Assembly (NCBI GenBank): GCA_000196815.1
Contig: FP929003.1
Location: 3,123,501 to 3,187,500 of the forward strand
DNA from: Nitrospira defluvii
GTDB lineage: Bacteria > Nitrospirota > Nitrospiria > Nitrospirales > Nitrospiraceae
Direction: 5' to 3'
DNA: 64,000 nt
The position numbers and the translations under genes were made by a program. Shown in pieces: positions 40,796 through 47,218 of the stretch; within the stretch, counting starts at the first letter, position 1, and each line of letters starts with the position of its first letter. The notes under the pieces are model-generated. The model did not search any database. It saw nothing but the letters and a program-made list of their open reading frames with translations, and was not told the origin of the DNA.

Positions 40796-41122
40796 TCAGA
40801 CGATCCCGAGAAATACGGCCAGAGAGCGGTCGACGCGGGCCATCGCCTCGCGATCGAGCGAGCCGATGCGGGCACCAATCGCGTCATGAGGAACGGTCAC
40901 GATCTTATCGATCATAATCTGCGAGGACTGCTTGAGGCCATTCTTAGGCGAGGGCTCAACGGAAAGGCGAAAAAGAGGCGCATCAAGAAACTCGGTCGTC
41001 AGAAGGCAAATCGTCACGCTCCCAAGCACAGAGAAGAGATCGGATTGCAGGACAAGGGCGGGCCGCGGCTTTCCGCTATAGTGGCCCTTGGCAGCGACCG
41101 CGACAAGATCGCCGCGTTTCAT
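40796..41122 (-). CDS. MazF/PemK-like toxin (endoribonuclease)
   Basis: The 108-residue protein begins MKRGDLVAVAAKGHYSGKPRPALVLQSD, the standard MazF/PemK start, and contains CLLTTEFLDAPLFRLSVEP and SSQIMIDKIVTVPHDAIGARIGSL, corresponding to the SH3-like barrel with the catalytic Arg/Thr region. It should cleave mRNA in a sequence-specific manner when released. Its start overlaps the end of the antitoxin gene by 4 nt (ATGA-type), the usual coupling in type II pairs. Confidence 0.88.
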   Translation of the reverse strand: MKRGDLVAVAAKGHYSGKPRPALVLQSDLFSVLGSVTICLLTTEFLDAPLFRLSVEPSPKNGLKQSSQIMIDKIVTVPHDAIGARIGSLDREAMARVDRSLAVFLGIV

Positions 41123-42317: not shown

Positions 42318-43754
42318 ATGTCGAATCTGGACGACCGCATGTGGGCGACCATGCCGTCGCGGAGGTCATTTCTTCAGCGGATGGGATTGGGTGTCGGGGT
42401 GCTAGGCGCAGGCCTGTTCGGCGGCCTGGCGTTGCCGGAATCAGTGCTGGCCGTGTGCGAACCTCCAGGCAATCCCGGGACACCGAAACCATGGCGCAAA
42501 GACTGTCGCATGATCCTCCCGCGCCGCCCCGCCAGCACCCTGAGTGCGGCGGAGATCACACAACTCAAGGATGCCTATAAGGCCATGCGCGCGCTCGACA
42601 GCAGCGCCCCCAACGACCCGCGCGGTTTCTTGCGGCAGGCCAACGTCCATTGCTGGTACTGCGGCGAGGGCACCCAGGTTCATTTCAGCTGGCAATTCTT
42701 CGCCTGGCACCGCGCCTATCTCTACTTCCACGAGCGCATTCTCGGGAAACTGATCGGAGACATGAATTTCCGTCTCCCCTACTGGGACTGGGACACCCCG
42801 AGTCACCGCAAGCTCCCCGGCGCCTACACCGATCCGAACGACAACAGCAATCCGCTGTGGAACGGCACCAGGAACATGGACCCGACGGACGAAATCCCGG
42901 AAGAAGATGTCGGAGAAGACGTGATGGAGGCCGCTCTCACAGCGGACACCTTCACGGAGTTCGGCGGTACGGCGAGCGGCAGCGGCATTCCGGAGGGGAC
43001 ACCCCACGGCGCAGTCCACGTCGATGTCGGCGGCGATATGGGCTTCTTCGATTCAGCCGGGAAAGATCCTGTCTTCTACGCGCATCATGCCAACGTGGAC
43101 AAGATGTGGTCGGACTGGAACAAGGCCTCGTCCATCCACACGAACCCGACGGTAACGACCTTCTTGAACCTGACATGGAATTTCTACGATGAAAACAAAG
43201 TGTGGCGGTCGATCAAGGCCTCACAGGTCCTGAACCACGACACCCAATTGCGTTATACCTATGGGCCGTCGAAGTTCTTGGAGCAGCTCCCCTGCCTCCT
43301 CGATTGGTTCCCCATCAAGACCGACTGGAGAGTCAGCCAGACCCTGAAGTTTGCCGGACAGACGCGTGCTAAGATGATGAAAGTCGTCGAACAGGGAGGC
43401 CGCGCGAGACTGCACCTGAACGAGCTCGCCGTTCCCACGGATAAGAGCGCTGTGTATCGACTCTATGCAACTCCCGAAGCGGCGAAAGCCGATGAAGGAC
43501 CTGGCAGCAAGGGCTACCTCGGTACCGTGCCGGTGGTGTTGAACGATCGGGAGCGTCGGCATCTGTCGAAGAACGCGCGAAACATCGCCCTCAGACTCTC
43601 CACCGCCAAACTCGACGCCCTGAGCGGTACCGTCGGTCCGGTGCGTCTGGCACTGGTCGAACGCGGAGTGAAACCTGAGGCCAGAAAAGTCATCCCGGTG
43701 CGGGCGAAGGACGTCTTGCTGTCCGTCGCAGAGGTGGAACGCGAGGAACGGTAA
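42318..43754 (+). CDS. Plant-type polyphenol oxidase (tyrosinase family), Tat-exported
   Basis: The 478-residue protein is a type-3 dicopper enzyme. A Tat signal SRRSFLQ at residues 14-20 precedes a Gly-rich hydrophobic stretch. CuA ligands are His111 in NVHCWYC, His122 in VHFSW and His131 in FFAWHRAYLYF; Cys115 is placed to form the Cys-His thioether of plant enzymes. CuB ligands lie in PHGAVHVDVGG and FYAHHANVDKMW. The C-terminal half resembles the DWL and KFDV regions of plant catechol oxidases. Substrate (mono- or diphenol) is unknown. AAGGAGG precedes the ATG. The small exported protein follows after 2 nt. Confidence 0.9.
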   Translation: MSNLDDRMWATMPSRRSFLQRMGLGVGVLGAGLFGGLALPESVLAVCEPPGNPGTPKPWRKDCRMILPRRPASTLSAAEITQLKDAYKAMRALDSSAPNDPRGFLRQANVHCWYCGEGTQVHFSWQFFAWHRAYLYFHERILGKLIGDMNFRLPYWDWDTPSHRKLPGAYTDPNDNSNPLWNGTRNMDPTDEIPEEDVGEDVMEAALTADTFTEFGGTASGSGIPEGTPHGAVHVDVGGDMGFFDSAGKDPVFYAHHANVDKMWSDWNKASSIHTNPTVTTFLNLTWNFYDENKVWRSIKASQVLNHDTQLRYTYGPSKFLEQLPCLLDWFPIKTDWRVSQTLKFAGQTRAKMMKVVEQGGRARLHLNELAVPTDKSAVYRLYATPEAAKADEGPGSKGYLGTVPVVLNDRERRHLSKNARNIALRLSTAKLDALSGTVGPVRLALVERGVKPEARKVIPVRAKDVLLSVAEVEREER

Positions 43755-43756
43755 TT

Positions 43757-44197
43757 ATGGGACTCATCTCCTGGCTCGCGAGCGTCATGATTCTGGCCGC
43801 CCTGACGGTTCAGGCGGAGGAAGGACCGCACCGGTTTTCCGTCGACTTACCGACCGGGTGGCAAGAGACTTCCCACCTCCGATTGGTGCTGGAGGGCATG
43901 ACGGTCGCCGGGGGACAACCGTTCAAGCTGCGAGCGGCGGCGATCCTCGAAGGAGCGGAGCCGGTCATGTTGGGCTCGGCGGGCATCGTGGGGGACCGGT
44001 CGGTGGGATCGGCTCCGCGACGCCTGCCGACCCTGCTGATCGATGTAACGCGCCCCCTTGGCAAGTTGGCCGATCGCCTGAGTGCGCAACCGGCCATCAC
44101 GATCCGCATCGAAGCTGTCGATGGTCGCAATGTGCCGGTGGGAGGGCTCGACTGGTCGGTGCAATCAGTCCGGCTGGAAAAGGGCGGGCGCAACTAG
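43757..44197 (+). CDS. Small exported protein paired with the polyphenol oxidase
   Basis: This 146-residue protein has a short Sec signal (about 1-20, ending TVQA) and a beta-rich mature part (HRFSVDLPTGWQETSHLRLVLEGM; LLIDVTRPLGKLADRLSAQPAITIRIEAVDG). It contains no Cys and only two His. I recognise no family. It begins 2 nt after the oxidase stop with GAGGAACGG upstream, so the two are surely co-expressed. It could be a maturation or copper-loading partner like tyrosinase caddies, or cover the active site; this is inference from position only. Confidence 0.75.
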   Translation: MGLISWLASVMILAALTVQAEEGPHRFSVDLPTGWQETSHLRLVLEGMTVAGGQPFKLRAAAILEGAEPVMLGSAGIVGDRSVGSAPRRLPTLLIDVTRPLGKLADRLSAQPAITIRIEAVDGRNVPVGGLDWSVQSVRLEKGGRN

Positions 44198-44409: not shown

Positions 44410-44892
44410 CTAAGGTCGCAGCAGCAATCCACCTCCCCCGTTCGCGGACCAAGACGCGGCCGGGGCTCCTTCACCGTAGCATCCAACCGTCCTGAACACT
44501 TTCACGGGCGCGGACTGGGCCTGGGCAATCGGGCGCGCCGGACCCACGGCAGACTCTGCGCTTCGTCCGCCCCCCGCCAGGTCAAATGCGACGATATGAT
44601 TCCTGACACCATTTTTGTGCCCCTCGGCAAGGCTCCGGACACCGCGCTTTGAGGAGTCGTTGCGCTCTTCACAGACGAGGTAGAAGCGCGTCCAAGCTAC
44701 CCGATTGCGGAAACGCAACTCGCCCGATGCAAGCAGTTCGTTTTGCACCTCGTCAGAAATCGCGAAATCGATCGTGATGCGCTCGACACCCTCATCTGGT
44801 GTGCCAGAGCCGCCGAGCTTGCAGAGAGCATCCAGCAACGGACCAACGTAGCGGACGAATTGCGTGCCTTCCTCTGACTTGCGCTTGCTCAT
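44410..44892 (-). pseudogene. Mrr N-terminal-domain fragment
   Basis: From the ATG at 44892 (MSKRKSEEGTQFV) the first 85 residues match the winged-helix N-terminal domain of Mrr-type restriction proteins: FVRYVGPLLDALCKLGGSGTPDE, ISDEVQNELLASGELRFRNRVAWTRFYLV, DSSKRGVRSLAEG. After that the similarity stops and the frame runs on for about 75 codons of unrelated sequence to 44410. The catalytic PD-(D/E)XK domain is absent, so this is probably a truncated gene. It lies directly downstream of an attC-like site and may have been carried as a cassette. Confidence 0.65.
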
Positions 44893-44907
44893 GCGGTTCT
44901 TATCGAG

Positions 44908-44966
44908 GGCTAGCATTCCGGTTCAGTGGCGGCGCGAATCGCCGTCCGCTATAACCAGTTGTGAGG
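44908..44966 (-). other. attC-like recombination site (degenerate)
   Basis: Read on the minus strand, arms CTGGTTATAGCGGACGGCG and CGCCGCCACTGAACCGG fold onto each other around ATTCG with unpaired bases, which is the arm pattern of integron attC sites. The outer simple sites are eroded: TCACAAC for RYYYAAC and GCTAGCC for GTTRRRY. It sits between the stop of the ABM-like gene (45003) and the Mrr fragment (44892), exactly where a cassette junction should be. Confidence 0.65.
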
Positions 44967-46378: not shown

Positions 46379-47218
46379 TTAATTCCAGTTACGCTGGATA
46401 CTTCTAAGCTCTTCTTTGCTAACGCGATCCTTCCGAAGATCCAATGGGTAGAGCGGGAACAACCACCTGTTTGCGATCTCGTTGATCACATTCGAGTCCT
46501 CGGTTTCCAACAAACCTCCCGCATGTAGACTCTCCAAGCTTTTGTTGTTCAGATCGAATAGCGCGTGCATCGTTAGATTCTCATCAATAGCTTGAGCCCG
46601 CCAAATCTTGGCAAGGATATCCAAGGCACTAGGCTTTAGACAGCCCGCATTGGAAAGGGCGGACACCAGCCGAAGCGTCGGACGCCTCGAGCTTACAGGC
46701 ATACGCCCCAACTCGTCCGTGCGTCGAGGGTCATGCCAATAATGGGCACCATCGTTTTCGATGTAGTCTACATAGATGGCTTCTTCTCGTTGGCGGAGAA
46801 TCTCGTTGTAGAAGATCCAGTCAACATTATTCGGCCCATCGAGATAGTACTCCTTTCGTTCTCGATTGACCCATTCCCGAACCGCTGAGAATGAATCCGG
46901 GTAGCGCCAGCAATATTGTGCGTATATGCCCTTCGCTAAGTGATCATTAAAATACTGCAACTGTCGGTTAAAGTCGGATTGTCGTTCAATGCGTGGGCAG
47001 CGCACAGCGTCGACCAGAATAAGAACCTTGGCCGCCTCTTCTTCGGCTGCGAGGCGCAGGATCTCACTCCCCGCAGGTCGCCTGAGCTCATTCAGCAAGA
47101 GTGAGTCGCTATCGATTTGGTGGGCGTTTGAAACGCAGAGCGCGGCACCGGCTGCAATTTCAGTGAAAAGGGTGTCATCGGTTAACTGTGAGAGATCTTG
47201 AATGGCTTTGACACGCAT
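46379..47218 (-). CDS. AbiV-like (HEPN) protein, possible abortive-infection gene
   Basis: The N-terminal 110 residues of this 279-residue protein recall the AbiV family: a helix with GAALCVSNAHQIDSDSLLLNEL, then RRPAGSEILRLAAEEEAAKVLILVDAVRCPR, where the EEEAAK run stands in the place of the family's EELGK. The middle is Tyr/Trp-rich (WRYPDSFSAVREWVNRERKEYYLD). No clear catalytic RX4-6H is visible, though R-x-VNRERKE is near. The gene is intact, with moderate codon bias toward A/T third positions unlike the core genes. Function in phage defence is inferred only from this resemblance and the accessory neighbourhood. Confidence 0.55.
   Translation of the reverse strand: MRVKAIQDLSQLTDDTLFTEIAAGAALCVSNAHQIDSDSLLLNELRRPAGSEILRLAAEEEAAKVLILVDAVRCPRIERQSDFNRQLQYFNDHLAKGIYAQYCWRYPDSFSAVREWVNRERKEYYLDGPNNVDWIFYNEILRQREEAIYVDYIENDGAHYWHDPRRTDELGRMPVSSRRPTLRLVSALSNAGCLKPSALDILAKIWRAQAIDENLTMHALFDLNNKSLESLHAGGLLETEDSNVINEIANRWLFPLYPLDLRKDRVSKEELRSIQRNWN

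Follow-up and report, generated by a model that had tools for sequence, protein, structure and literature searches.

In a 64,000-nt stretch of the Nitrospira defluvii genome (the window, whose positions serve as coordinates throughout), a gene for a plant-type polyphenol oxidase (PPO) is followed almost immediately by a gene for a small exported protein. The question raised by this locus is what the small protein is and what it does beside the oxidase. Our analysis indicated that, by its structure model and profile comparisons, the small protein looks like a second, free-standing lid of the plant-type PPO, encoded in trans. The first-pass annotation had described two open reading frames (ORFs) of 478 and 146 aa, the second beginning 2 nt downstream of the first. 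Their coordinates matched ours and the observation as a whole was confirmed, while its interpretation was supported in part. The features discussed first are as follows.

42318..43754, forward strand: plant-type PPO (type-3 copper), a pre-pro-enzyme of 478 aa (PF00264, PF12142, orthologues)
43757..44197, forward strand: free-standing lid-like protein of 146 aa, probably Sec-exported, with cleavage near residue 20 (AlphaFold2 model, Foldseek, VIA, ratio of nonsynonymous to synonymous substitution rates (dN/dS))
43743..43748, forward strand: likely ribosome-binding site GAGGAA, within the end of the oxidase gene (sequence)

The TAA of the oxidase ends at 43754 and is followed by TT and the ATG of the small gene. 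The position of GAGGAA inside the 3' end of the oxidase gene suggests that translation of the small gene may be coupled.

The small protein and its linkage to the oxidase

By eye, the signal peptide of the small protein consists of a hydrophobic stretch and a cut between VQA and EE. No Pfam family (E ≤ 10) and no NCBIfam family matched the protein. The earlier description of a protein of no recognised family needs correction, since its model adopts the fold of the lid at the C-terminus of PPOs. A single-sequence AlphaFold2 model, with a mean predicted local distance difference test score (pLDDT) of 65 and a predicted template modelling score (pTM) of 0.60, was compared by Foldseek with 350,542 PDB chains. 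It was observed that ranks 1-12 were all plant PPOs (apple, tomato, and Coreopsis), headed by 6elt and 6elv, structures of the apple lid on its own, with E from 8.9e-5 and a sequence identity of 12-14%. Comparison with 6elt by VIA yielded a Z of 9.5 and a root-mean-square deviation of 3.5 with 118 residues aligned, and the best row outside PPO had a Z of 8.1; according to the tool's own note, values below 8 may reflect merely a common arrangement. The lids of Hahella and Ralstonia tyrosinases and of hemocyanins were also among the VIA rows. At the sequence level, a profile of the small-protein family (10 sequences) was compared with 14 bacterial tyrosinase lids, our selection from 52 candidates that do not belong to the family of orthologues. 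The score was 21.2 over 88 columns, only 1 of 980 permutations was as high, and the reversed profile scored 14.3. These results suggested that the small protein likely has the fold of the PPO C-terminal lid and is probably homologous to PPO lids. Because it is a separate ORF with its own start and is not fused behind a catalytic domain, we describe it as lid-like and reserve the term lid domain for lids that are fused.

Several points weigh against this identification. In a HMMER search with a 32-sequence lid profile, the small protein was absent from the 26 rows printed, decoys included, and Pfam returned nothing. The model was built from a single sequence with a pLDDT of 65, and its Z of 9.5 lies just 1.4 above that of an unrelated fold. 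The small protein was also not demonstrably nearer to the oxidase's own lid, with 22 of 400 permutations as good. Finally, the oxidase already has a predicted lid in cis, so a second lid at the same site would need the first to move. Whether the small gene arose recently as a duplicate of the oxidase lid was considered separately; with the same 22 of 400 permutations, such an origin was unsupported.

To evaluate the linkage of the two genes, 395 genomes of the phylum were searched. The strong matches of the oxidase and of the small gene coincided in the same 10 genomes. In an eleventh and most distant genome (G400, locus L051), the oxidase was 76% and the small protein 42% identical, and the two genes overlapped by 4 nt. 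Within the genus, the oxidase or a remnant of it was present in 11 of 29 genomes, and the small gene or its remnant lay downstream in all 11. We looked in these genomes for an orthologous oxidase lacking the small gene and found none. Eight of the 11 pairs were intact, including that of the window (oxidase identity of 76-97% in the seven other genomes), one was split between contigs (G169), one was frameshifted (G298), and one was a decayed remnant (G364). The small gene began 2 nt after the oxidase in seven of the eight intact pairs, all except that of L051; in one of these seven (G127), the small gene could instead start at an overlapping GTG. Two neighbourhoods were found in all, as the L051 pair adjoined a subtilase gene and a molybdopterin oxidoreductase gene, a setting unrelated to that of the window. 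As side observations, the oxidase frameshift in G298 (L052), where the small gene is intact, is possibly an assembly error, and the loci of G364 (L012 and L042) showed apparent decay, with both genes truncated and only parts left.

Measured against the seven orthologues, the oxidase had a dN/dS of 0.07-0.16, compared with 0.25-0.36 in the small gene. The small gene is under purifying selection, and the possibility of a chance ORF was ruled out by the orthologues and dN/dS. No oxidase orthologue was found in 18 of the 29 genus genomes, some of which are incomplete. The earlier remark that an extracytoplasmic phenol oxidase lies outside the usual picture of a nitrifier is qualified here: the enzyme is not core nitrifier equipment, nor is it unprecedented, PPOs of Nitrospiraceae having been published in 2023. 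Outside the genus, 175 genomes of the family contained no oxidase orthologue, and the best match was 38% identical over the catalytic domain. As a single-protein query against the genome contigs, the oxidase retrieved four loci, all from Nitrospira; distant plant-type PPOs (Flavobacteriaceae) are beyond the reach of this query. The small protein also matched weakly in six other genomes of the phylum, with E of 0.003-0.01; these matches were rejected, as no tyrosinase frame was found in their loci (L043-L048). A tblastn search of plasmids with the small protein (E ≤ 10) gave seven weak records, and the one from Rhizobium sullae, with no tyrosinase among its ORFs, was regarded as chance. The search of viral contigs with the small protein gave no confirmed match.

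The oxidase, its plant relatives and its predicted lid

The features within the oxidase gene are as follows.

42354..42452, forward strand: twin-arginine (Tat) signal peptide, SRRSFLQ..., residues ~13-45 (TIGR01409; signal end by eye)
42648..42710, forward strand: CuA site, H111, C112-W-Y-C115 (C115 the putative thioether Cys), H122, and H131 (alignment to tomato, apple, and sweet potato PPO; invariant in 6 aligned orthologues)
42993..43088, forward strand: CuB site, E226, H230, H234, F244, and H257 (invariant in 6 aligned sequences)
43158..43268, forward strand: DWL domain, residues 281-317 (PF12142, 25.0 bits against a cut-off of 20.8)
43335..43733, forward strand: predicted cis lid of KFDV-like fold, residues ~340-472 (VIA-align rows 1-9, all PPO or tyrosinase lids; profile permutation test)

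The tyrosinase domain PF00264 was matched with an E of 1.2e-33 and 117.8 bits against a curated cut-off of 22.6. A PF00264 search of the entire single-contig genome (4,317,083 bases) returned two pieces, both within the ORF at 42318-43754, indicating that the oxidase is the only tyrosinase gene found in the genome. The Tat signal proposed in the first-pass annotation was recovered by TIGR01409 (NCBIfam) at 17.4 bits, above the cut-off of 16.7, and the proposed DWL region likewise exceeded its cut-off. All six copper-binding histidines (H111, H122, H131, H230, H234, and H257) were invariant in the 6 aligned sequences. The plant-like HCxYC, also noted before, corresponds to H111-C112-W-Y-C115 and was aligned by phmmer to the HCAYC of the tomato, apple, and sweet potato enzymes. 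This places the Cys for a thioether bond, the bond itself being putative. C115 lies 7 residues ahead of H122, the second CuA histidine, compared with 17 in sweet potato as printed in the alignment, and the CuA loop before this histidine is 7-10 residues shorter than in plant PPOs. In the CuB region, we take E226 to be the water-keeper and F244 the gate, in part on the basis of PMC10541563. The substrates of the oxidase are probably o-diphenols, judging from its family.

To place the oxidase among its relatives, we compared the CuA region with those of plant PPOs, of two hemocyanin units, and of 15 further tyrosinases from bacteria, of which six were plasmid-encoded and nine came from genomes of the same phylum as the oxidase. 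The identity was 50-52% to tomato, apple, and sweet potato PPO, 28-44% to the bacterial tyrosinases, and 35 and 41% to the hemocyanin units. In a tree of the CuA region only (145 columns, 23 rows), three Nitrospira and three plant rows were grouped with a support of 91/86 (ultrafast bootstrap/SH-like approximate likelihood ratio test), and long branches elsewhere in this tree are unsafe. The phylogeny, proposed earlier as a check against plant and bacterial PPOs, thus grouped the oxidase with the plant enzymes, and together with HCxYC and DWL it identified the oxidase as plant-type. The grouping agrees with PMC10541563 (Hortic Res 2023), passages of which report a clade that unites the catechol oxidases of Nitrospiraceae with those of Chara and embryophytes (streptophytes) with a support of >90%. 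Those catechol oxidases, tyrosinase and DWL by Pfam, very probably represent the same oxidase family. The plant affinity of Nitrospira PPOs is already published. In the passages of PMC10541563 considered here, neither a lid-like C-terminus in Nitrospira nor the small gene is mentioned, and no account of a plant-type PPO whose neighbouring gene encodes a separate lid was found in the open-access literature, subscription papers being outside the search. The Nitrospira oxidase shares HCxYC and DWL, and probably a C-terminal lid fold, with plant PPOs and catechol oxidases (apple MdPPO1, tomato, sweet potato, and Coreopsis aurone synthase). It differs from plant PPO in its Tat signal, the shorter CuA loop, a predicted lid too divergent for PF12143, and the apparent second lid as a separate gene.

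A KFDV-like C-terminal region had also been suggested in the first-pass annotation. No Pfam match to KFDV (PF12143) was obtained with the whole oxidase or the isolated C-terminus, even at E ≤ 10, and the oxidase was therefore filed as a sister of plant PPOs and not as a three-domain plant PPO. A structure model from four sequences was poor, with a pLDDT of 39 and a useless catalytic part, and residues 350-468 were its best part. VIA rows 1-9 of this poor model all fell on residues 340-475 and comprised the lids of tomato, apple, and Coreopsis PPO and of Ralstonia and Hahella tyrosinase, with Z of only 5.7-4.7. The profile of residues 340-472 (10 sequences) scored 29.2 against the 14 bacterial tyrosinase C-termini, and none of 391 column permutations equalled it (maximum 20.2). 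In the HMMER search with the 32-sequence lid profile, the L051 oxidase C-terminus ranked first above 3396 decoys (E 0.056), and that of the window oxidase was mixed with decoys. Collectively, the weak structure model and the profile test suggested a divergent lid-like region, and the oxidase is predicted to keep its own KFDV-like lid at residues ~340-472, which Pfam misses.

Possible roles of the proposed free lid

The first-pass annotation had proposed a maturation factor or inhibitor, which was the right area of hypotheses and is sharpened here to a second PPO lid acting in trans. With moderate confidence, we propose that the two-gene unit would encode a latent plant-type PPO and a free lid whose docking after export controls latency or activation. 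The oxidase would fold with its own C-terminal lid and, as its signal implies, be exported by Tat, and the small protein, probably translated from the same message, would be exported separately, probably via Sec. Since the two proteins carry different export signals, they would probably meet outside the cytoplasm. The free lid would most likely dock at or near the site where lids cover the copper site and would thereby set the latent or active state of the oxidase. It might keep the oxidase closed once the cis lid has been cut or displaced, speed the removal of the cis lid, or both. A parallel is provided by apple PPO1, for which PMC6563526 describes that the lid remains bound after self-cleavage and the enzyme remains latent, and that added free lid increases the rate of pro-enzyme self-cleavage. 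According to the same paper, the free apple C-terminal domain (6elt, 6elv) folds alone and acts on the pro-enzyme in vitro. The apple free lid is a cleavage product or laboratory construct, whereas that proposed for Nitrospira is encoded by a separate gene. A free-lid gene beside a PPO that retains its own lid, taken with the apple parallel, suggests a trans-acting latch or activator. A more specific form of control, in which the free lid either replaces the cis lid at the active site or brings about its removal and so regulates the enzyme without a protease, is put forward only tentatively.

Alternatively, the small protein could be a periplasmic maturation chaperone that assists folding or copper loading and then leaves, like the caddie MelC1 for the Streptomyces tyrosinase; we consider this rather unlikely. 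The layout of two genes and the similar size recall MelC1/MelC2, where an operon encodes both a tyrosinase that is exported and, as a gene apart, its small partner. MelC2 is not known to carry a lid itself, unlike the Nitrospira oxidase, which has its own Tat signal and keeps a predicted lid. The MelC1 gene lies upstream and is responsible for secretion of the tyrosinase, whereas the Nitrospira partner lies downstream, carries its own signal, and lacks the caddie profile. Tat exports folded proteins, so help with folding outside would come late, and each of the two proteins has its own signal. The small protein lacks Cys, and M1 is its only conserved Met, which argues against a copper-chaperone role, and no profile of any family, the caddie family PF06236 included, matched it at E ≤ 10; the candidates of a caddie and of a copper chaperone were rejected accordingly. 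Lids are described in passages of PMC6563526 and PMC11608171 as needed for correct folding, which is consistent with a chaperone, and PMC11608171 describes the Streptomyces caddie as a separate lid standing in for the C-terminal one. The caddie thus appears similar in working and, by the profile tests, not of the same family as the small protein.

More doubtful still is the possibility that the small protein is lid-like in fold and acts elsewhere, by binding polysaccharide or oxidised phenol products or by anchoring the oxidase at the envelope. Its weaker structural matches included jelly rolls, carbohydrate-binding modules among them, and the small gene evolves faster than the oxidase; however, the PPO lids outranked these matches and the small gene was found only beside the oxidase. 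A chance beta-sandwich similarity with no relation to lids, although allowed by a single-sequence model of moderate confidence and a weak sequence signal, is improbable given that the first 12 Foldseek rows all belonged to one protein family, that of the neighbouring gene, and that 1 of 980 permutations was as good.

If the small protein is a trans-acting lid, its natural occurrence next to a plant-type PPO would allow activation to be studied with two purified proteins; the in vivo activation of latent PPOs is described as still widely unknown in PMC6563526. The locus is also relevant to where the plant browning enzyme came from, as the C-terminal lid, proposed in passages of PMC10541563 to have arisen after transfer to plants, has a predicted equivalent in Nitrospira. 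Should the transfer from bacteria to plants be correct as published, the lid would have come with the enzyme and would not be a plant invention. A bacterial origin of plant PPO was argued in 2016, and DWL and KFDV were reported in some other bacteria (PMC4707469, in the passages considered), so the correction concerns the Nitrospiraceae.

Small genes beside other tyrosinases and further observations

If the two-lid reading is true, tyrosinases of other bacteria may likewise be accompanied by small genes for lid-like partners, and Rhizobium and Sinorhizobium are candidates. As in Nitrospira, a short gene lies directly downstream of their plasmid tyrosinases, and the small proteins have no demonstrated sequence relation to lids. 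They include WP_004668602.1 from Rhizobium and WP_014528484.1 from Sinorhizobium. The positions within the loci are as follows.

Rhizobium small gene: L097:3029-3484, L103:2991-3446, L104:2989-3459, L105:2989-3459, L109:3001-3456
Sinorhizobium small gene: L098:3215-3544, L107:3001-3333, L108:3001-3330

In Rhizobium (R. etli p42d and relatives), the exported-looking small gene begins ~20-30 nt downstream of the tyrosinase, has no Pfam family, and may encode a free lid. It was matched by 37 plasmid records, and a tyrosinase stood just upstream in five of the six examined; the sixth was a truncated copy beside an IS21 element. The distinct Sinorhizobium gene (109-110 aa) was matched by 59 records, with a tyrosinase directly upstream in all three examined, and its cluster includes, upstream, a second small gene together with a gene for a multicopper oxidase. 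In the comparison with lids, 11 of 60 permutations did as well as the Rhizobium protein and 2 of 60 as well as the Sinorhizobium protein, which is too weak for a claim. The Rhizobium tyrosinase itself had a sub-threshold KFDV match. On the plasmids of R. leguminosarum and R. lusitanum, a multicopper-oxidase-like ORF recognised by eye (L104:11-1402 and L105:9-1403), the tyrosinase, and the small gene stand in a row, suggesting a phenol-oxidising operon.

In two related Nitrospiraceae tyrosinases (L013 and L014, from G288 and G199; frames of 685 and 818 aa), the catalytic domain was preceded by an N-terminal series of W-rich repeats (WGGWESLGG...). Tyrosinase-family proteins were also encoded by 31 IMG/VR viral contigs (L066-L096), some >200 kb, and most of these proteins were ~450-550 aa with a C-terminal extension. 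In the window, the upstream neighbours of the oxidase include an outer membrane efflux protein, a CAAX-type protease, and a metallo-beta-lactamase-fold protein, and a PemK/MazF-like toxin gene lies just upstream at 40796-41122 on the minus strand. Downstream, also on the minus strand, an Mrr N-terminal domain protein and a HEPN/AbiV-like protein (44410-44916 and 46379-47218) are encoded by possible defence genes.
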